A stretch of DNA of 64,000 nt from Roseomonas fluvialis (lineage in GTDB: Bacteria > Pseudomonadota > Alphaproteobacteria > Acetobacterales > Acetobacteraceae). Below the pieces are notes generated by a model. The model did no database searches. It worked only from the letters and a program-made list of their open reading frames with translations, and was not told where the DNA came from. The position numbers were made by a program, and so were the translations under genes. Each line of letters opens with the position of its first letter. Position 1 is the stretch's first letter. Where the stretch lies: positions 2,939,001 to 3,003,000 of the forward strand of contig NZ_AP025637.1 of NCBI RefSeq assembly GCF_022846615.1, read 5' to 3'. Of this stretch, positions 2,905-50,992 are shown in pieces.

Positions 2905-5217
2905 ATGGGCGCGATGACCCGGACGATGTTCCCCTCCCGCCCCCGCGGGCCGACCAGGATGGCCGCGCTGCTCGCAGCCGGGCTGCTGCTGTCCGCCTGC
3001 GCCGCGCTGTCGCCGCGCGCCGTCAGTACCGATGCGCGCATCGCCGCCCTGCCGACCACCGGCGCCACGGTCGAACGCCCCGTCACCATCCGCTGGAACG
3101 ACCACATGGTCCCGTGGGTGGACGCCGAGACCGACCGCGACCTGTTCTATGCGCTGGGCCTGGTGCATGGGCATCTGCGCGGGGCGCAGGTGGCGCTGCT
3201 GCGGCTGGTTGCGCGCGGCCGGCTCTCGGAAGCCGCTGGCCCCTTTGCGACCGACATCGACCACGCGCTGCGCATTCTCGATTTCGGCCGCGCCGCGCCG
3301 GCGGTGCGCGCCGCCTGGCCGGAGGAGACGCGCGCGCTGATGGGATCCTTCACGGCCGGGCTGAACCACGCGGTGATGAACGGGCGCGCGCCGCCCGAAT
3401 TCGGGCTTCTCGGCCTGTCGCGCGAACCTTTCACCGAGGACGACCTGATCGCGATCGGGCGGCTGGCGGGCACCGACGTGAACTGGCTGGGATACCTCGC
3501 GCTGCTGCCCTCGCGCGGTACGCCCGGCTTCGACAGGCTGTGGCAGCGCACCGTCGCGGCCGGGTCCTCCGCACCGGAAGCGGCGCTGCCCGAAGGACGG
3601 CGGCTTGCCGTGATCCGCGACATCCTGGCCGGCACGGGGCGCGTGGGGTCTAACACCGTCGCGGTGGCCGCACGGCGGTCCGCGACCGGCGGCGCGCTGA
3701 TCGGATCCGACCCGCATCTGGGGTTGATCCAGCCGAATGTCTGGCTGGCGGCGGGCATGCGGTCGCCGTCGTTCCACGCGGTCGGGCTGATGGTGCCGGG
3801 GCTGCCCTTCCTGGCGATCGGGCGCAACGCGGATGTCGCCTGGGGCGGCACCAACATGCGCGCGGCGTCGTCGGACCTGTTCGATGTGTCGGGCCTGCCG
3901 GCCGAGGAATTCCGCAGCCACACCGTGCGCATCCGCCAGCGCCTGTGGTTCAGCGCGGAACGGCAGGTGCGCCTCACGCCGCATGGCCCCGTCGTGACCG
4001 ATGCCGCGGTTCTGCCGCGCCGCCCCGGCGACGTGATCGCGCTGCGCTGGATCGGCCATGAGCCGACCGACGAGATCACCGCGCTGCTCGGCGCGGCGCG
4101 CGCGCGCAACGGCGAGGAATTCCGCGCGGCCTTCGACCGCTTCGGCGTCTCGGCACAGAACATGATCTGGGCGGGGCGCGACGGGCGGATCGGACAGTTC
4201 TACGCGACCACCATCCCGGACCGCCGCGCGATCCCGGCCGACCCCGTGCTGGATGCGCGCGACCCGGCCGCGACCGCGCCATGGGGCCGCCTGCTGCGCA
4301 CCCCCGACCTGCCCCATGTGGTGAACCCGCGCGACGGCGTGCTGGCGAGTGCGAACAACCGCCCCGAGCCGCTGGGCGGCCGCGCGCCGCCGGTGCTGGG
4401 CTTCTTCTTCTCCGACAGCGATCGCGTCGAGCGCCTGCGCGAGTTATTGGCATCGCGCCCGCGCCACACGCCGGCCGACATCATGGCGATCCAGGCCGAT
4501 ACGCGGTCCCCGCGCGCGGGGCGGCTGGCGGCGGCGCTGGCGGCGCGGATGGCTGGCATCGCGGAGGCCGCGCCGCTGGTCGCCGCCCTGCACGGCTGGG
4601 ATGGCGACTACCGCGCCGAGTCCCGCGCGCCCGTGGCCTTCGAGGTGCTGCTCGCGCGCCTGGTTCCGCTGCTCGCGGCCGAGGACCGCGCCGAAGCCAC
4701 CACCAATCGTCGCGCGCCGGAAAGCCAGTGGAACTTCATCACCGCGTTCCTGCTGCGCGACCTCGATGCGCTCGATCCGGCGCGGCGCGAGGCGGTGCTG
4801 CGCGAAGCCTCGCGCGTTGCGGCGACGGATCTCGCGGGACTGTCCACCTGGGGCGAGATGCACCGCCTGCCGCACGCGCATGCCCTGGTGAACCTGCCGG
4901 TGCTCGGCGAGGCCTTCTTCCGCTACGGCGACTACGCCGTGGGTGGTTCGCGCGAGACACCGATGAAGACCAGCCACGGCCTGGTCACCGCGCGCCACAA
5001 CACCGCCTTCGGCTCCATGGCGCGGCACGTGAGCGACATGTCCGACCCGGACGCCAATTGGTTCACGCTGTGGGGCGGGCAGGATGGGTGGCTCGGTTCG
5101 GCGGCCTTCGCGGACCAGGTGCCGATGTGGCTGGAACGGCGCAGCATCCGCGTGCCGCTGCGGCCGGAGACGGTGGCGGTGGAGTTCCCGCGCGCGACAC
5201 GCCTGGCGCCGCGATGA
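2905..5217 (+). CDS. Penicillin acylase family lipoprotein (Ntn hydrolase)
   Basis: Predicted 770-residue amidase of the penicillin/cephalosporin/acyl-homoserine-lactone acylase family. Such proteins are made as a precursor, cleaved into alpha and beta chains, and act outside the inner membrane. The N-terminus has a basic start, a hydrophobic core and the lipobox LLSAC with Cys32, so a lipid anchor is likely. The autocatalytic junction and nucleophile are visible as GSNTVAV, with Ser249 expected to become the beta-chain N-terminus. GSDPHLG and WGGTNMRAASSDLF follow as usual for the family. An alternative start at 2914 would only shorten the signal. Its stop codon overlaps an ATG (ATGA at 5214-5217) that opens the first unit of a 59-bp repeat. 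The natural substrate cannot be told; acyl-homoserine lactones or N-acyl amides are possibilities. Confidence 0.88.
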   Translation: MGAMTRTMFPSRPRGPTRMAALLAAGLLLSACAALSPRAVSTDARIAALPTTGATVERPVTIRWNDHMVPWVDAETDRDLFYALGLVHGHLRGAQVALLRLVARGRLSEAAGPFATDIDHALRILDFGRAAPAVRAAWPEETRALMGSFTAGLNHAVMNGRAPPEFGLLGLSREPFTEDDLIAIGRLAGTDVNWLGYLALLPSRGTPGFDRLWQRTVAAGSSAPEAALPEGRRLAVIRDILAGTGRVGSNTVAVAARRSATGGALIGSDPHLGLIQPNVWLAAGMRSPSFHAVGLMVPGLPFLAIGRNADVAWGGTNMRAASSDLFDVSGLPAEEFRSHTVRIRQRLWFSAERQVRLTPHGPVVTDAAVLPRRPGDVIALRWIGHEPTDEITALLGAARARNGEEFRAAFDRFGVSAQNMIWAGRDGRIGQFYATTIPDRRAIPADPVLDARDPAATAPWGRLLRTPDLPHVVNPRDGVLASANNRPEPLGGRAPPVLGFFFSDSDRVERLRELLASRPRHTPADIMAIQADTRSPRAGRLAAALAARMAGIAEAAPLVAALHGWDGDYRAESRAPVAFEVLLARLVPLLAAEDRAEATTNRRAPESQWNFITAFLLRDLDALDPARREAVLREASRVAATDLAGLSTWGEMHRLPHAHALVNLPVLGEAFFRYGDYAVGGSRETPMKTSHGLVTARHNTAFGSMARHVSDMSDPDANWFTLWGGQDGWLGSAAFADQVPMWLERRSIRVPLRPETVAVEFPRATRLAPR

Positions 5218-5388
5218 CCGCGCCCGATGACCGCAGCGCCGCAAGGCGCGAAGGTCTGAATCGGCCGCGCCGATGACCGCGCCCGATGACCGCAGCGCCG
5301 CAGGGCGCGAAGGTCTGAATCGGCCGCGCCGATGACCGCGCCCGATGACCGCAGCGCCGCAGGGCGCGAAGGTCTGAATCGGCCGCGC
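5212..5388 (+). repeat. Three tandem 59-bp repeats forming coupled 20-codon ORFs
   Basis: Exact unit length is 59 bp: copies at 5212-5270, 5271-5329 and 5330-5388. Copies 2 and 3 are identical up to the final bases; copy 1 differs by one A/G change. Each unit opens a 21-codon frame (5214-5276, 5273-5335, 5332-5394) beginning MTAPDDRSAA. Each frame ends in a TGA that overlaps the next ATG as ATGA. The first ATG overlaps the acylase stop, and the last TGA overlaps the GH3 start at 5391. A partial fourth copy appears to be the start of the GH3 gene itself (MSAPFD against MTAPDD). Each unit also contains a small stem GCGCC/GGCGC with a GCAA or GCAG loop. Confidence 0.95.
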
Positions 5389-5390
5389 CA

Positions 5391-6905
5391 ATGAGCGCGC
5401 CCTTCGACGCCACGCCCCTGCTGCGCGCCTTCGCCGCGCGGCGCCATGCGCGCCTGCTCGCCATGGACCCCGCCGCCACGCAGCAGGCGCTGCTGCTGCG
5501 CCTGGTGCAGCGCGCCGCCGGCACGCGCTTCGGGCGCGACCACGGCTTCGGGGCGATCCGCTCCGTGGCCGACTTCCAGCGTGCCGTCCCGCTGCGCCGC
5601 TACGAGGCACTGCACGATGCCTATCTCGCACCCACCCTGCCGGTGCTGGAGAACGTGCTGTGGCCCGGGCGTACGCCCTACCTCGCGCTGTCCTCGGGCA
5701 CGACATCGGGGCGCACCAAGCACATCCCGGTCACGGCCGGGATGGTGCGCGCCAATCGCGGCGCCGCGCTCGACGTGCTGGCCTGGCATCTCGCGCAGCA
5801 CCCGCAGGCGCGGCCGTTCGGCGGGCTGTCGTTCATCCTGGGCGGTTCGACCGACCTCACGCAGGTCGCACCTGGCGTGCGGGCCGGCGATCTCTCGGGC
5901 ATCGCGGCGGTCGAGGTGCCATGGTTTCTCCGGGGCTGGGCCTGGCCTCCCGCGCGCATCGCGCTGATGCCGGACTGGGACGCGAAGCTCGCGGCGCTGG
6001 CGGCCGAGGCGCCGGTGGGCGACATCCGCACGCTGTCGGGCACACCGTCCTGGCTGCTGGTGCTGCTGGAACGACTGGCCGCGAAGCATGGCGTGGCGCC
6101 GCTACCCTCGCTGGAACTGCTCATTCATGGCGGCGTCGCCTGGGCGCCCTATCGCGATCGCCTCGCACCCTTCCTGCCGGCGGGCTGCCTTACGCGCGAG
6201 GTCTATCCGGCCAGCGAGGGCTTCGTCGCCATCGCTGACCGCGGGGATGGCGAGGGGCTGCGCCTGAACCTCGACCGCGGCTGCTTCTTCGAATTCGTGC
6301 CGGTCGGCGAACTCGACGCGCCTGCGCCGACCCGCCACTGGGCCGCGACGATCGAGACCGGCGTGGACTACGCCGTGGTCCTGTCATCCTGCGCCGGACT
6401 GTTCGGCTATGTGCTGGGGGATACGGTGCGCTTCATCGACCGCGCACCGCCGCGCCTGCTGGTGACGGGCCGCACGTCATGGACCCTGTCCGCCTTTGGC
6501 GAGCACCTGGACGGCGAGGAGATCGAAGCCGCGCTGATGCATGCCGCCGCGGAGGCCGGCATCACGGTGGTCGAATACGTGGTGGGCCCGGAATTCGACG
6601 GCAGTGCCGGGCGGCACCGCTGGTGCATCGAGGCCGCGGGCAGTTGCGATCCGGCGTCGCTCGCCGCACTGCTCGATGCCGCGCTGCGCGTGCAGAACGA
6701 CGACTACGCGGCGCATCGCGACGGCGCGCAACTGGCACGGCCCGAGGTGGTCCTGCTGCGACCGGGGGCCGTGGCCGACTGGATGCGCGCGCAGGGCAAG
6801 CTGGGCGGACAGCACAAGGTGCCGCGGGTGATCGCCGACCCCGCGCGCTTCGCCGATGCCGCCGCCGCGCTCAGTGGCCCTGGTCGGGGGCCGCGTCCGA
6901 ATTGA
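5391..6905 (+). CDS. GH3 auxin-responsive promoter family protein (acyl-adenylate-forming)
   Basis: Protein of 504 residues related to plant GH3 acyl-acid amido synthetases and the bacterial members of the family, which belong to the ANL adenylating superfamily. Visible family features are LSSGTTSGRTKHIPVT (ATP/phosphate-binding serine/threonine-rich loop, near residues 102-117), FLRGWAWPPARIALMPDWD, and the C-terminal LVTGRTSWTLSAFGEHLDGEEIE, corresponding to the hinge and acceptor part. The bacterial substrates are unknown. The start at 5391 lies in an ATGA overlap with the last repeat-encoded short ORF, so translation may depend on ribosomes arriving from the acylase through the repeat. 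The 3' end overlaps the convergent bfr gene by 35 bp. Confidence 0.85.
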   Translation: MSAPFDATPLLRAFAARRHARLLAMDPAATQQALLLRLVQRAAGTRFGRDHGFGAIRSVADFQRAVPLRRYEALHDAYLAPTLPVLENVLWPGRTPYLALSSGTTSGRTKHIPVTAGMVRANRGAALDVLAWHLAQHPQARPFGGLSFILGGSTDLTQVAPGVRAGDLSGIAAVEVPWFLRGWAWPPARIALMPDWDAKLAALAAEAPVGDIRTLSGTPSWLLVLLERLAAKHGVAPLPSLELLIHGGVAWAPYRDRLAPFLPAGCLTREVYPASEGFVAIADRGDGEGLRLNLDRGCFFEFVPVGELDAPAPTRHWAATIETGVDYAVVLSSCAGLFGYVLGDTVRFIDRAPPRLLVTGRTSWTLSAFGEHLDGEEIEAALMHAAAEAGITVVEYVVGPEFDGSAGRHRWCIEAAGSCDPASLAALLDAALRVQNDDYAAHRDGAQLARPEVVLLRPGAVADWMRAQGKLGGQHKVPRVIADPARFADAAAALSGPGRGPRPN

Positions 6906-21199: not shown

Positions 21200-21673
21200 T
21201 CAGGGGCGGCGGCGCAGCAGGTAGCGCTGGCGCCCGTCCATCACCAGCACGCCCGTCTGGTTGTGCACGGTGCTGCGCAGGCCGAGCACGCCGGTCGTGC
21301 GTTGCGGCGTGATCTCGTCGACCTCCAGCGCGGCATAGAGCGTGTCGCCGGCGAAGACCGGGTGCAGGAAGCGGGAGGACTGTTCGAGGAAGCCCTTCAG
21401 CGAGTCCTCGACCAGGTGCGGAAAGATGCCGGCGCCGGCGGCGGTCTGGATCGCCACCTGGAAGCCGTGCGCCAGCATGTGCGGCATGCCGCGCGCCCGG
21501 CAGTATTCGACATCGTAGTGCACCGGGTGGTTGTCGCCCGACGCCAGCGCGAAGGCGGCGAACAGCGCCTCGGTCATGGTGCGGCTCGGCAGGACGAAGC
21601 GTTCGCCGAGGGTGAAGTCCTCGAACCAGCGCTGCGCCGGCACCATGCGGTGCGCGGCCGGGTCGAAGGTCAC
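21200..21673 (-). CDS. MaoC-family hydratase/dehydratase
   Basis: Protein of 157 residues with a single hot-dog domain. The hydratase-2 motif is visible as ASGDNHPVHYDVEYCRARG followed by LAHGFQV, with the catalytic Asp and His. Such enzymes hydrate enoyl-CoA thioesters or dehydrate hydroxyacyl-CoA. The start is taken as the GTG at 21673, which overlaps the stop of the upstream hydantoinase B gene as GTGA. An internal ATG (MVPAQRW) is a less likely alternative. It stands downstream of a TRAP transporter and HyuA/HyuB, so it may act on an acyl-CoA formed from the imported compound. That link is inference. Confidence 0.85.
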   Translation of the reverse strand: MTFDPAAHRMVPAQRWFEDFTLGERFVLPSRTMTEALFAAFALASGDNHPVHYDVEYCRARGMPHMLAHGFQVAIQTAAGAGIFPHLVEDSLKGFLEQSSRFLHPVFAGDTLYAALEVDEITPQRTTGVLGLRSTVHNQTGVLVMDGRQRYLLRRRP

Positions 21674-23379
21674 GGGACGCCCGGCCGCGCGCCATCCGGC
21701 GCGATGTAGCCCCGCGCGCCATCCGGCGCGATGTAGCCCCGCGCGCCGTCCGGCGCGACGTAGCCCAGTTCGCGGTCGCGCGCCGCGGCCGCTGCGTTGC
21801 GTGCCACCGGATCTCCGAAACCGCCGCCGCCGGAGGTCTCCAGCCGCACGATGTCGCCCTGCCGCAACCGCACGCCATCCGACTTCGGTGCGATCGGTGT
21901 CTCGACGCCATCGCGGATGCGCACCAGCCGCCCGAGGCTGCCCGGCCCGCCCCCAGCCAGCCCATAGGGCGGGAAGCGGAAGCGATCCATGTTCGCGGTG
22001 AACACGCCGGCCGGGCTGTCCACCCGCCATTCCCGGAACAGCCCGAGCCCACCGCGGAACGCGCCTGCCCCACCCGACCCTGGCAGCAGGCCGTAGCGCG
22101 TGATGGTCAGGGGCATCTGGCTCTCGATCATCTCGACCGGGATATTGGCGTTGTTGTGCATGCCGAAGGACCAGGCGTTCACGCCATCCTTGCCAGGTGC
22201 CGCGCCGGTGCCGCCGATCTCGATTTCGACCAGCACCTCGCGCGATCCGTCCGCACCCTCGGTCTGGAAGGTCGCGACATAGGACCCGCCATAGTAGGCC
22301 GCGGGCATGCGGTCAGGCAGAGCCCGGTGCAGGCAGCCGAACATCACATTCGCCAGGCGATGCGACACCGCCACGCGATGCGCAACCGAGGCCGGCGCGC
22401 GGCAGTTGGTGACGGAACCCTCGCGATGGGTGATGCGGATCGGCCGGTAGCAGCCGGCATTGGCCGGCATGGCGCCATCCGTCGCGGCGATGATCGCGTA
22501 GTAGACCGCGCAGTTCGACATGGCCGGCGTACAGTTGATGGGGCCGCGCTGCTGGTCGGCGCAGCCGGTCAGGTCCACCACGATTTCGTCGCCCTGCACC
22601 GTGACCGCGGCGTGCAGCCGGACCGGCTCGCCCGAGATGCCGTCATCGTCGAGGAAGTCCTCGAATTCGTAGCGCCCGTCCGGCATGGCGCGGATGGCCG
22701 CGCGCATCGCCGCCTCGCTCATGTCGAGGATGCGCGCGGTGGCCTCGGTGATGCCCGCCGCGCCGTAGCGCTGCGCTAGCCGGCGGATCGACGCCGCGCC
22801 GACATCGAGCGAAGCCAGCTGCGACTGCAAATCACCCAGCATCAGCGCCGGCTTTCGCACGTTCTGGCCGATCATCTCCCAGACCGCGCGATTGAGCCGC
22901 CCGTTCTCGATCAGCTTCAGCGGCGGGATCCGCAGGCCTTCCTGGAAGACCTCCGTCGCGGTGGCGGCGTAGGACCCCGGCGCCATCCCGCCCATGTCGA
23001 TGTGGTGGCACAGCGCGCCGACATAGGCGACGCGCCGGCCCTCATGCATCACCGGCTTGAACACCAGTACGTCGTTGAGATGCTGCGCGCCGCAATACGG
23101 GTCGTTGGTGGCCACCACGTCGTCCGGCCCCCATTCGTCCGCCACCACGAAACGGTCGAGCAGCGTGCGCAGCGCCGCGCCCATGGAATTCAGGTGCTGC
23201 GGGATGCGCGCGGACTGCGCGACATTGTTGCCCTCCGCGTCGAACACCGCGGTGGAGTAGTCCAGCAGCTCGCGCACGATGGTGCTGCGGCTGGTGCGCC
23301 AGATGGTGATGTCCATCTCGGCTGCCGCGGCGGTCAGCGCGTTGCGGATGACCTCGATCTCGATGGGGCCGAACGTCAT
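21670..23379 (-). CDS. Hydantoinase B/oxoprolinase family protein (first HyuB)
   Basis: Protein of 569 residues, normal for the HyuB beta-subunit family that works with HyuA in ATP-dependent opening of hydantoin, oxoproline or related rings, or in acetone-type carboxylation. Typical phrases are ATNDPYCGAQHLNDVLVFKP, HHIDMGGMAPGS, and the glycine-rich GLLPGSGGAGAFRGGLGL. The last 36 residues carry three nine-residue repeats (GYxAPDGAR), not normally part of the family. The gene overlaps hyuA upstream by ATGA and maoC downstream by GTGA, so all three are co-translated. The true substrate is unknown. Confidence 0.9.
   Translation of the reverse strand: MTFGPIEIEVIRNALTAAAAEMDITIWRTSRSTIVRELLDYSTAVFDAEGNNVAQSARIPQHLNSMGAALRTLLDRFVVADEWGPDDVVATNDPYCGAQHLNDVLVFKPVMHEGRRVAYVGALCHHIDMGGMAPGSYAATATEVFQEGLRIPPLKLIENGRLNRAVWEMIGQNVRKPALMLGDLQSQLASLDVGAASIRRLAQRYGAAGITEATARILDMSEAAMRAAIRAMPDGRYEFEDFLDDDGISGEPVRLHAAVTVQGDEIVVDLTGCADQQRGPINCTPAMSNCAVYYAIIAATDGAMPANAGCYRPIRITHREGSVTNCRAPASVAHRVAVSHRLANVMFGCLHRALPDRMPAAYYGGSYVATFQTEGADGSREVLVEIEIGGTGAAPGKDGVNAWSFGMHNNANIPVEMIESQMPLTITRYGLLPGSGGAGAFRGGLGLFREWRVDSPAGVFTANMDRFRFPPYGLAGGGPGSLGRLVRIRDGVETPIAPKSDGVRLRQGDIVRLETSGGGGFGDPVARNAAAAARDRELGYVAPDGARGYIAPDGARGYIAPDGARPGVP
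21687..21767 (-). repeat. Three in-frame 27-bp repeats at the HyuB C-terminus
   Basis: Units at 21687-21713, 21714-21740 and 21741-21767. Each encodes nine residues, read on the minus strand as GYVAPDGAR, GYIAPDGAR, GYIAPDGAR. The two units closest to the stop codon are identical; the first in the protein has two changes. The repeat ends 14 bases before the GTGA overlap that starts the MaoC gene. Confidence 0.95.
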
Positions 23380-48342: not shown

Positions 48343-49281
48343 TCAGGAATGGAGGTAGAAGGCGCCGATCTCCGCACCCAGGTCGATGCTGCGGTCGATC
48401 TTGCGCGTCAGGAACTGGTGCAACCCCTCGCCCATGATGTCCTCGATGCGCGAGAATTTCAGACGCGCATGGATCTCGCCCGCCAGGCGGTGGCATTCCC
48501 CGCGCTGCCCGCCATGCGCGGCCGCCAGCCCGTCCAGCGTCTCCTCGATGCGCGCGTAGCACGCCACCATCGACCGCGGCAGTTCGTGGCGCAGCAGCAG
48601 CATCTCCGCGATCCGCCGCGGATCGAGCCGTGCGCGATAGATGTGGTGATAGGCCCGCAGTGCCGACACCGACCGCAGGATCGCCTGCCAGTGCAGGTAG
48701 GCCAGTGCGCCACCCTCCTCCACGTCGCTCAGCGCATGGTGGTGCGTGTCGAGCACGCGCGCGGTGTTGTCGGCGCGTTCCAGCATGGTGCCCAGCCGCA
48801 CGAAGCGCCAGGCCTCGCCGCGCAGCATGGTGTCGGCATAGGCGCCGTTGAACAGCACCGTTCGCTGCTTCATCCAGTCGAGGAAGTCCGGCAGGTTGTC
48901 GGGCGCGAAGGTTGCCTCGGTGCTGCGGCGTGCCTGTGACCAGGTCTCGTTCACCGCCTCCCACATGTCGACCGTGAGCGCTGTGCGCACGGCACGCCCG
49001 TTGCGCCGCGCCGCCTCGATGCAGGACATGATCGAGGACGGATTCTCGGGATCGGCGGCGAGGTAGCGGACCACGTTTTCCTGCGTGAGCGGCGCGCCCT
49101 TGTCGCGGAATCCCGGCTCGCAGCCGGTGGCCACCAGCAGCGCGTGCCACGCCGTGTCGCGCTGCCCCGCGCCGGTCAGCGACGCCATGCGCAGCGCCAC
49201 CTGCAGACCGCGCGCATTGTTGCCCGCGCGCTCGACATAGCGGCCGAGCCAGTACAGGCTGGATGCGGTGCGGCTCAGCAT
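48343..49281 (-). CDS. Alpha-E domain-containing protein
   Basis: Protein of 312 residues, helical throughout, with the family opening MLSRTASSLYWLGRYVERAG and WRFVRLGTMLERADNTARVL further on, ending DRSIDLGAEIGAFYLHS. The alpha-E family is encoded almost always with a circularly permuted ATP-grasp protein and often with transglutaminase and Anbu. It has been proposed to act with the ATP-grasp ligase in synthesising a peptide-like modification. The start at 49281 lies inside the last seven bases of the ATP-grasp gene, so the two are translationally coupled. Confidence 0.92.
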   Translation of the reverse strand: MLSRTASSLYWLGRYVERAGNNARGLQVALRMASLTGAGQRDTAWHALLVATGCEPGFRDKGAPLTQENVVRYLAADPENPSSIMSCIEAARRNGRAVRTALTVDMWEAVNETWSQARRSTEATFAPDNLPDFLDWMKQRTVLFNGAYADTMLRGEAWRFVRLGTMLERADNTARVLDTHHHALSDVEEGGALAYLHWQAILRSVSALRAYHHIYRARLDPRRIAEMLLLRHELPRSMVACYARIEETLDGLAAAHGGQRGECHRLAGEIHARLKFSRIEDIMGEGLHQFLTRKIDRSIDLGAEIGAFYLHS

Positions 49282-50807
49282 CCCGAGCCGCCCTGCGACT
49301 GCGATTGCGACTGTGATTGCGACCCGGACTGTGACTGGGATTGCGACTGCGACTGCGACTGCCCCTGCAGCGGGCGCGCGATGTCGGCGGGGTCGTCCTC
49401 CAGCACCCAGGTGTCCTTGGTGCCACCGCCCTGGGAGGAATTCACCACCAGCGATCCCTCGCGCAGCGCGACACGGGTCAGCCCGCCGGGCACCACGCGC
49501 ACCTCCTTGCCCGACAGGATGAAGGGCCGCAGGTCGACATGCCGCGGCGCGATACCCTTTTCCACCAGCGTCGGCACGGTGGACAGCGCAAGCGTCGGCT
49601 GCGCGATGTATTCGCCCGGCCGCGCCTTGATGCGCGCTGCGAATTCCATGCGCTGGTCGGTCGTGCTGTGCGGCCCGACCAGCATCCCGTAGCCGCCCGA
49701 CCCGTGGGTCAGCTTCACTACCAGCTCGTGCAGGTTGTCGAGCACATAGGCGCGATGGTCTTCGCGCTCGCACAGGTAGGTCGGCACGTTCTGCAGCAGC
49801 GGTTCCTCGGCCAGGTAGAAGCGGATCATCTCCGGCACGTAGGGATAGACCGCCTTGTCGTCGGCGATGCCGGCCCCGGGCGCATTGGCCAGCGCGACAT
49901 TGCCCGCCTTGTAAGCCGCCATCAGCCCCGGCACGCCCAGCACGCTCTCGGGCCGGAACACGCGCGGATCGAGGTAGTCGTCGTCGATGCGGCGATAGAT
50001 CACGTCCACGCGCTGCGGGCCCGCCGTGGTGCGCATGAACACCACGTCATCCTCGACGAACAGGTCAGGGCCTTCCACGACTTCCACGCCCATCTCGTCG
50101 GCCAGGAAGCAGTGTTCGTAATAGGCGGAATTGTACGACCCCGGCGTCAGGATCGCCACGCGCGGCGCGCCGCGGCAGCCGGGTGGCGCGACCGACTTCA
50201 GCGTCTCGAGCAGTTCCTCGGGATAATGCCCGACGGGGGCGATGCGGTGCGCCGCGCAGATACCTGGGAACAGGCGGAGCATCGCCTCGCGCCCCTCCAG
50301 CATGTACGAGACACCCGATGGCGTGCGGCAATTATCCTCGAGCACCCAGAACTCGTGCGGGCTGGTGCGCACCACGTCGATGCCCGCGATATGCGTGTAG
50401 ACGCCGCCGGGCGGCGTGAAGCCGGCCATCTCGGGGCGGAAGGCCTCGTTGTCGCGCACCAGTGCGGCGGGGATGTGCCCGGCGCGCAGGATCTCCTGCT
50501 TCCCGTACACATCCGCCAGGAACATGTTCAGCGCGCGCACCCGCTGCACCAGGCCGCGCGACAGCGCATCCCATTCGGCGCGCGCAAGGATTCGCGGAAT
50601 GATGTCGAAGGGGATCAACCGTTCCGGATCCCCGCCCTCACCATAGACGGCAAAGGTGATTCCGATGCGTTTGAACAGCAGTTCGGCCTCGTGCCGGCGC
50701 TGTTCCAGCGCGGCACGTGGAGTCGCGGCCAGCCAGCGCGCGATCTCGGCATAGGGTCCGCGAACGAGGCCATCGGCCGTCATTTCGTCGAAGGCGGGTG
50801 TGGTCAT
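49275..50807 (-). CDS. Circularly permuted ATP-grasp protein
   Basis: Protein of 510 residues of the circularly permuted type 2 ATP-grasp family. Visible hallmarks: FKRIGITFAVYGEGGDPERL, AFRPEMAGFTPPGGVYTHIA, FWVLEDNCRTPSGVSYMLEG, and VVKLTHGSGGYGMLVGP. The C-terminus NSSQGGGTKDTWVLEDD is normally close to the end. Here it is extended by ten QS dipeptides with one GS inserted, ending GGSGC. The enzyme is expected to make an ATP-dependent amide or peptide bond. The ATG at 50807 is taken as the start; an in-frame GTG at 50813 has GGAGGA at a better distance (10 bases) and could be the true start. Confidence 0.92.
   Translation of the reverse strand: MTTPAFDEMTADGLVRGPYAEIARWLAATPRAALEQRRHEAELLFKRIGITFAVYGEGGDPERLIPFDIIPRILARAEWDALSRGLVQRVRALNMFLADVYGKQEILRAGHIPAALVRDNEAFRPEMAGFTPPGGVYTHIAGIDVVRTSPHEFWVLEDNCRTPSGVSYMLEGREAMLRLFPGICAAHRIAPVGHYPEELLETLKSVAPPGCRGAPRVAILTPGSYNSAYYEHCFLADEMGVEVVEGPDLFVEDDVVFMRTTAGPQRVDVIYRRIDDDYLDPRVFRPESVLGVPGLMAAYKAGNVALANAPGAGIADDKAVYPYVPEMIRFYLAEEPLLQNVPTYLCEREDHRAYVLDNLHELVVKLTHGSGGYGMLVGPHSTTDQRMEFAARIKARPGEYIAQPTLALSTVPTLVEKGIAPRHVDLRPFILSGKEVRVVPGGLTRVALREGSLVVNSSQGGGTKDTWVLEDDPADIARPLQGQSQSQSQSQSQSGSQSQSQSQSQGGSGC
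49296..49361 (-). repeat. Hexanucleotide tandem repeat encoding a Gln-Ser tail
   Basis: Eleven 6-bp units. Read on the minus strand they give six QS, one GS, then four QS. Codons alternate between CAG/CAA and TCG/TCC/TCA, so the DNA is diverged but the protein is kept regular. Because the unit is a multiple of three, changes in copy number would keep the frame. It lies 15 bases from the overlapping start of the alpha-E gene. Confidence 0.95.
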
Positions 50808-50992
50808 GGTCACCGGCGCGAAGTCCTCCGTCCCCGAGCCTTGCCGTTCACGACCGCCGAACGCAAGCCCGCGATGGTGCGCCCCGGCCCGGGCCGCGCG
50901 ACCTTTGCCCAGGAAGCGGGCGATGCGTGCCCCGGTATGGGCAGCCACCGCACCCCGCCCTATCGTCTCGCGCCCCGCCAGGAGAACCCCGC

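Follow-up and report, generated by a model that had tools for sequence, protein, structure and literature searches.

A dispersed hairpin element arrayed in tandem at an amidase–GH3 gene joint of Roseomonas fluvialis

Results

Three hairpin units lie between an amidase gene and a GH3 gene

The DNA analysed here, hereafter the window, is a 64,000-nt stretch of the Roseomonas fluvialis contig NZ_AP025637.1. Near its left end, on the forward strand, a gene of the penicillin amidase family (2905..5217; PF01804) is followed by a gene of the GH3 acyl-adenylase family (5391..6905; PF03321, PF23571 and PF23572), and the joint between them holds a tandem array of three 59-nt units (5212-5390) that scores 361 in Tandem Repeats Finder with 97% matches, far above chance. 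The motif ATGA recurs at 5214, 5273, 5332 and 5391. The amidase TGA stop (5215-5217) shares the first of these with the start of a mini-open reading frame (mini-ORF) of 20 codons (5214..5276; MTAPDDRSAARREGLNRPRR, then a stop), which is followed by two more of the same length (5273..5335, MTAPDDRSAAGREGLNRPRR, and 5332..5394, MTAPDDRSAAGREGLNRPRQ, each ending in a stop); the stop of the third shares the last ATGA with the GH3 start.

Each unit contains one copy of a 53-nt hairpin element, at 5218..5270 (model match of 75.2 bits), 5277..5329 and 5336..5388 (75.9 bits each), all on the forward strand, and these three are the only good-scoring copies within the window. The array is bordered by two copies of a junction sequence, ATGACCGCGCC on the left (5214..5224) and ATGAGCGCGCC on the right (5391..5401), which differ by one base and of which the right one is the GH3 start itself. 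A Shine-Dalgarno-like GGAGG lies within the 3' inner strand of the hairpin in many copies of the element and reads GAAGG in the window (5250-5254).

A sequence-only reading of this locus had given its coordinates, the period of 59, the copy number of three and the ATGA chain, all of which were correct when the sequence was read again, and the domain assignments bear out the penicillin-acylase-family and GH3-family neighbours that it named. The repeat, which it called exact, is near-exact: position 5244 carries A in copy 1 but G in the other two, and unit 3 ends in A (5390), whereas units 1 and 2 end in G. A glycoside hydrolase identity for the GH3 gene was considered and is ruled out by its auxin-type acyl-adenylase domains. 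Because the unit holds an ATGA, has a length of 2 mod 3 and lacks an in-frame stop, the chain arises automatically, and given the unit it is little extra surprise.

The unit contains a covarying fold

The 53-nt element folds into three helices with 19 pairs, and its conserved unpaired parts are a GNA/GNA 3x3 internal loop and a TGA bulge. Among 90 distinct copies, this fold was paired in 93.1% of cells, and 16 of the 19 pairs had changes on both sides. The covariation score of these 90 sequences, a set preselected by a pairing filter, was 0.421, compared with 0.122 for shuffles and 0.030-0.080 for slid controls. An unfiltered, sequence-only pattern gave a similar picture, with 3.67 of 4 inner and 3.88 of 4 apical positions paired over 132 distinct matches. 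A known Rfam element was rejected as an identity, as the window contained no match at gathering score; three matches in 5150-5450 fell far below it. In 19 of 157 arrays the hairpin is followed by the word ACAAG; shuffles gave a mean of 1.6 such cases and a maximum of 7. Words like ACAAG fill many tandem spacers and might mark an end of the element.

The element is dispersed in the Acetobacteraceae

Searching the whole genome with the array returned seven matches, namely the array itself and six others at five places, three of which again have units in tandem: four of 60 nt, two of 63 nt and two of 87 nt. Most copies have in common the core CCGAT-NNNN-GNA-hairpin-GNA-NNNN-TGA-ATCGG, which is degenerate at one of the five places (L005). 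A model built from six copies found at least 16 copies at nine loci of this genome (E<=0.001), a lower bound because 150 of 7767 first-look candidates were scored. The same model matched all 35 genomes of the genus but none of 24 genomes from other families.

A model of 90 sequences matched 113 of 299 genomes and 31 of 65 genera of the order at E<=1e-4, with at most about 19 candidates scored per genome, and every match listed by this search belongs to the family of the window. One genome of the same genus (G004), weakly matched by the six-copy model, has no match with the 90-sequence model. In public genomes, at least 119 stretches match a pattern of the element. Among the matches listed are the genera Siccirubricoccus, Plastoroseomonas, Paracraurococcus, Roseococcus, Belnapia, Falsiroseomonas, Dankookia, Paeniroseomonas, Roseicella, Rubritepida and Roseomonas, all presumably Acetobacteraceae, together with metagenome-assembled genomes (MAGs) labelled Acetobacteraceae, Rhodospirillales or Alphaproteobacteria. 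A match in Mesorhizobium (L140) fails the structure filter, and a MAG labelled Rhodobacter (L151) is probably a mislabelled bin, since its flanks match a Roseomonas MAG locus (L048). One viral contig of IMG/VR also matches the element pattern (L262 1336-1376). The element is thus a widespread family of folded DNA, dispersed in Acetobacteraceae of the Roseomonas group. Our literature search found no description of this hairpin family in the Acetobacteraceae.

This dispersal bears on the origin of the unit, which the sequence-only reading had ascribed to duplication of the junction. The edge ATGA(C/G)CGCGCC does repeat the junction, but the core is the dispersed element, and copies across the genome and the genus exclude a private junction duplication as the full origin.

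Relatives have the same joint without the element

Of the 35 genomes of the genus, 11 have a homologue of the GH3 gene (E<=1e-60). In seven of the ten other than the present one, the amidase end, judged by eye, lies directly upstream with no element between the two genes. These joints have an ATGA overlap in G018, G010 and G028, a GTGA overlap in G015, G016 and G004, and a 67-nt gap in G030. As for the remaining three, G006 has about 120 nt without an element upstream of GH3 and then the contig end, and G021 and G032 have a different sequence there. The empty site of G018 reads ATGACCGCGCCCTTC where the window has ATGACCGCGCC to the left and ATGAGCGCGCC to the right of the array. Relatives were the comparison to which the sequence-only reading had pointed: they do keep the NTGA overlap in six of seven cases, but the array itself is absent from all seven. 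These empty, coupled sites imply that the insertion is probably recent and that the joint was coupled beforehand. An element probably entered the coupled joint and was then amplified.

Other joints vary similarly. Upstream of an ABC-transporter ATPase, a gene present in 34 of 35 genomes, we examined 21 loci, two of them partial; the array has four 60-nt units in this genome, five in G018 and two in G003, and of the 19 loci read, 16 have no element at this joint. Since the copy numbers differ by 60-nt units, the steps keep the frame. The four copies in this genome are exact and in frame with the ATPase (L002 1447-1667; G000:C1:4870668-4870900). The next start codon there lies where the ABC domain begins or just at its edge, and the N-terminus of the protein therefore probably contains the repeats; N-terminal peptides containing SDGRRAEGPGELNRPR are predicted from the fusion. 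The EutB-EutC joint is filled in two of 18 loci read (G028 and G016), and judged by eye those of G011 and G032 may hold remnants of the element.

Behind NTGA stops, most elements in gene orientation leave the next gene decodable

To place the family relative to genes, we assigned neighbours with a codon-usage caller; an earlier count from a GC-frame gene finder, which put 38 of 141 arrays inside genes, was discarded because shadow ORFs had misled the finder. Of 145 arrays with flanks, 75 lie between codirectional genes in gene orientation and 33 between codirectional genes in reverse. The others are between convergent (26) or divergent (7) genes, inside called genes (2) or next to a single neighbour (2). 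The elements of these arrays lie a short way past stop codons. Read in gene orientation, a typical core of 41 nt has one open frame, and when the core begins 6 nt past an NTGA stop, the overlapping NTG start falls in that frame.

We then counted how often the frame leads into the next gene, taking one row per downstream protein family. Arrays less than 300 nt from a locus end, inside called genes or between opposite-strand genes were excluded, as were repeated downstream families and arrays whose stop preceded the core by more than 30 nt or was called past the beginning of the core. Behind NTGA stops, 14 of 20 families with elements in gene orientation were decodable, by 11 fusions and three coupled relays, compared with seven of 31 (five fusions and two relays) behind other stops (Fisher 0.001). 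The window itself, one of the other six of 20, belongs to neither class, as its relay meets its first stop within the array. The result was similar in a hold-out set: 16 of 20 families were decodable behind NTGA stops (13 fusions and three relays) and three of 11 behind other stops (one fusion and two relays; Fisher 0.006). This set was drawn from 80 regions, the best-scoring and hence non-random rows of the order-wide search, and supplied 76 fresh arrays and 32 new families. The fresh arrays are what was left of 88 after 12 had been removed as seen or doubled; five arrays were then set aside as lying inside called genes and 12 for stop distance, and eight of its 40 families were already in the first set. 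The counts support preservation of coupling: behind an NTGA stop, an element in gene orientation leaves the following gene decodable in most families.

The commonest outcome, in 24 of 40 NTGA families of both sets, was an in-frame N-terminal fusion to the downstream protein. Ten fused proteins were scanned for a later start. In four, the first later ATG, GTG or TTG lies inside a Pfam domain, and in these the fusion therefore looks obligate: a hydantoinase (L039), EutC (L044), a MaoC protein (L117) and an enoyl-CoA hydratase (L119). The ABC ATPase described above was the one with a later start at the domain edge.

Repeat lengths, on which the sequence-only reading had proposed to judge the chain, cut both ways. 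Tandem periods elsewhere span 51-72 nt, plus 123 and 165. Of 54 per-array periods, 30 are 54, 57 or 60, lengths that form no per-unit chain and yet hold a single frame from one end of the array to the other. Multiples of three make up 38 of 54 periods in the first set and 11 of 15 in the hold-out, an excess that stems in part from the common lengths 54, 57 and 60 and, among fusions, from the definition of that class.

Reversed elements and a second chain

Reversed elements are enriched behind NTGA: 19 of 25 lie at such a stop, against a background of 171 of 345 gene pairs. In the first set, 12 of 17 families with a reversed element behind NTGA have a mini-ORF that ends in the next start, and 13 of 17 are in phase 2 (p 0.0003). 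Several of these mini-ORFs share their first residues with the next protein (VMY/VMY, VMD/VMD and MK/MK). As possible target site duplications, which together with a cognate transposase would mark a miniature inverted-repeat transposable element (MITE), flanking repeats of 11 nt occur in L048, L114, L115 and L174, and a shared flanking word of at least 7 nt was found in seven of 15 reverse relays (2.8 expected) and one of 16 in-orientation loci (0.3 expected). As this reverse-relay pattern was first seen by eye and counted on the same loci, the hold-out set was used for it as well.

A per-unit chain, with NTGA in every spacer and a unit of 2 mod 3, was found in two of 51 tandem arrays, the window and L132. 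The latter has two 56-nt units with identical mini-ORFs (MNATDSRLRAFALQRSGAA, then a stop) and an ATGA before, between and after them, three in all; its elements are oriented opposite to those of the window. The layout in the window is thus a rare but recurrent outcome.

Other repeats in the window

Two further repeats in the window lie at the C-terminal ends of genes on the reverse strand. At 21685-21783, three to four 27-bp repeats code for GYIAPDGAR-type repeats just before the stop of gene 21670-23379. At 49293-49362, about twelve CTGCGA hexamers code for a (QS)n tail of gene 49275-50948.

Discussion

We propose, with a probability of roughly 0.72, that the array consists of tandem dispersed hairpin elements that were inserted at the ATGA joint, amplified there and tolerated because the joint stays coupled. 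One copy would have entered the overlapping amidase–GH3 joint after the split from the nearest sampled relative, leaving the edge ATGA(C/G)CGCGCC on both sides, and slippage or recombination could have raised it to three. A ribosome that leaves the amidase frame could reinitiate on a mini-ORF of 20 codons and do so anew at every ATGA up to GH3. At most other NTGA joints with the element in gene orientation, its frame would instead be fused to the downstream N-terminus. The family, its fold, the empty sites and the frame statistics are observed; we infer from them that the element is mobile and that termination-reinitiation operates, possibly with some effect on GH3 output. The translational relay suggested by the sequence-only reading draws support from the unbroken stop/start chain, the ancestral coupling in six of seven relatives, the second chain in L132 and the phase bias at NTGA joints; as a new regulatory device, tuned by copy number, it stays a conjecture.

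Several results weigh against this proposal. Elements in gene orientation show no enrichment behind NTGA (25 of 61, with 171 of 345 pairs as background), and clear flanking duplications occur at some loci only. The reversed relay was not replicated: the six NTGA rows of the hold-out comprise one relay, one fusion, two open and two closed cases, with the single new family closed. At other stops two of three reversed rows are relays, and the hold-out reversed rows are too few to decide. With a chain in two of 51 tandem arrays, the layout of the window is not usual for the family. Finally, no element-moving enzyme of the Y1 type, the type looked for, was found in 42 carrier genomes: PF01797 was matched in none of 26 genomes of the genus and none of 16 element-rich genomes of the family, with controls at five of 14. 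On this absence from the 42 genomes we also rejected an identity as a repetitive extragenic palindromic (REP) sequence driven by a REP-associated tyrosine transposase (RAYT), and a GTAG foot is absent from the consensus and the flank profiles.

Two other explanations appear unlikely, to a similar degree. In the first, selection at gene 3' ends would favour the element as a REP-like RNA hairpin, through mRNA protection or ribosome slowing, with the mini-ORFs as a by-product. It would fit the spacing of cores in gene orientation, whose distance from the stop is 6 nt in 16 of 20 families behind NTGA and in 11 of 31 behind other stops, the ratio of convergent to divergent pairs (26 to 7), and the down-regulation of translation by stop-proximal REPs that the available text of one study describes in Escherichia coli (PMC12306157). 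It leaves unexplained, however, the NTGA frame bias seen in two sets and the N-terminal translation that four loci apparently need. The second is a plain accident of slippage, in which a selfish or neutral repeat has no effect and the chain follows from the unit length of 59. In its favour, one of the eight genomes that have the gene pair has the unit at this joint; any ATGA-holding unit of 2 mod 3 forms the chain automatically, and the copies, one or two bases apart, are therefore recent. The core, however, is a conserved dispersed element with compensatory changes, and the phase bias at NTGA joints and the independent second chain also speak against it. Ordinary slippage alone thus fails to explain the array, although this account overlaps with our proposal, because a neutral insertion kept only where harmless would look identical.

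More tentatively still, the hairpin may be a mobile element, moved by an enzyme and built for coupled joints, that serves as an N-terminal tag or as a countable relay setting downstream translation. It is very improbable that GH3 is uncoupled from the amidase gene by a promoter or terminator within the array: the region between senX3 and regX3 that contains mycobacterial interspersed repetitive units (MIRUs) can, in the available text of PMC4213456, drive regX3 expression, but we rejected such sites of the scanned types, as neither a sigma-70-like promoter, the one promoter type scanned, nor a terminator-like site was found in 5100-5500.

If the enzyme-moved hairpin built for coupled joints is real, its single open frame would align with the NTGA overlap whenever the hairpin starts 6 nt after the stop, and a unit length of 2 mod 3 would turn the array into a relay of coupled mini-ORFs, with downstream translation set by how many there are. 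The natural copy-number series, with 0, 2, 4 and 5 units before the ABC ATPase and 0 or 3 before GH3, make the relation between repeat number and downstream translation directly testable. More generally, what is annotated in these genomes as an N-terminus or a "small ORF" may in fact be part of one hairpin element.

Hairpin families compatible with translation are a known kind; this one is apparently undescribed, as far as our literature search goes. The Rickettsia palindromic element (RPE) is, in the available text of PMC10969869, a palindromic element read in frame inside proteins. Compared by description, our element is likewise a hairpin read in frame within proteins, as in the N-terminal fusions and the four apparently obligate loci, but it sits at N-termini beside an upstream stop, with another structure and in another host.

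The GTAG and CGTC REPs are described in the available text of PMC3733652 as hairpins dispersed downstream of genes, between codirectional or convergent ones, a habit common to our element. Unlike GTAG REPs, it has no conserved GTAG tag, and no RAYT-type gene was found in the 42 genomes. The CGTC repeats, reported there as missing in the Acetobacteraceae, have an 8-9 bp stem, a 4-5 nt loop, a CGTC tag, a CCA tail and head-to-head dimers (PMC3733652, same portion), whereas our element is longer, with 19 pairs in three helices, and forms head-to-tail arrays. CGTC precedes its core in part of the copies only. The E. coli REPs mentioned above, which lie less than 15 nt from the stop (PMC12306157, available text), resemble it as hairpins a few nucleotides behind a stop; here, however, the stop often overlaps a start whose frame crosses the hairpin. 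For Lichenicola cladoniae, which we take to be one of the Acetobacteraceae, the available text of PMC12306157 gives 1,369 predicted REPs, and we found no motif for them there; some copies of the hairpin family may already be counted among them under a generic definition.

The closest likeness is to MIRUs, which the available text of PMC12548453 presents as seemingly mobile repeats whose insertion sites are start codons and whose ORF is coupled to the gene at -4 nt. In senX3-regX3, one strain has three identical 77-bp units and another two of 77 bp and one of 53 bp, according to the same portion of PMC4213456. Both systems are short tandem repeats between codirectional genes, with a unit ORF coupled by a -4 overlap at both ends in the window and L132, and their unit lengths are alike in being 2 mod 3 (77 and 53 in MIRUs, 59 and 56 in the hairpin arrays). 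Coupling at both ends occurs in only two of the 51 tandem arrays of the hairpin family, and our element differs in being a covarying hairpin of 53 nt, in belonging to the Acetobacteraceae and in forming mostly N-terminal fusions and less often mini-ORFs. Likened by description, the hairpin array appears to work as MIRUs do, and it would represent a second lineage, with no known kinship to MIRUs, in which short repeats lie in the stop/start joints of operons and often leave them unbroken.

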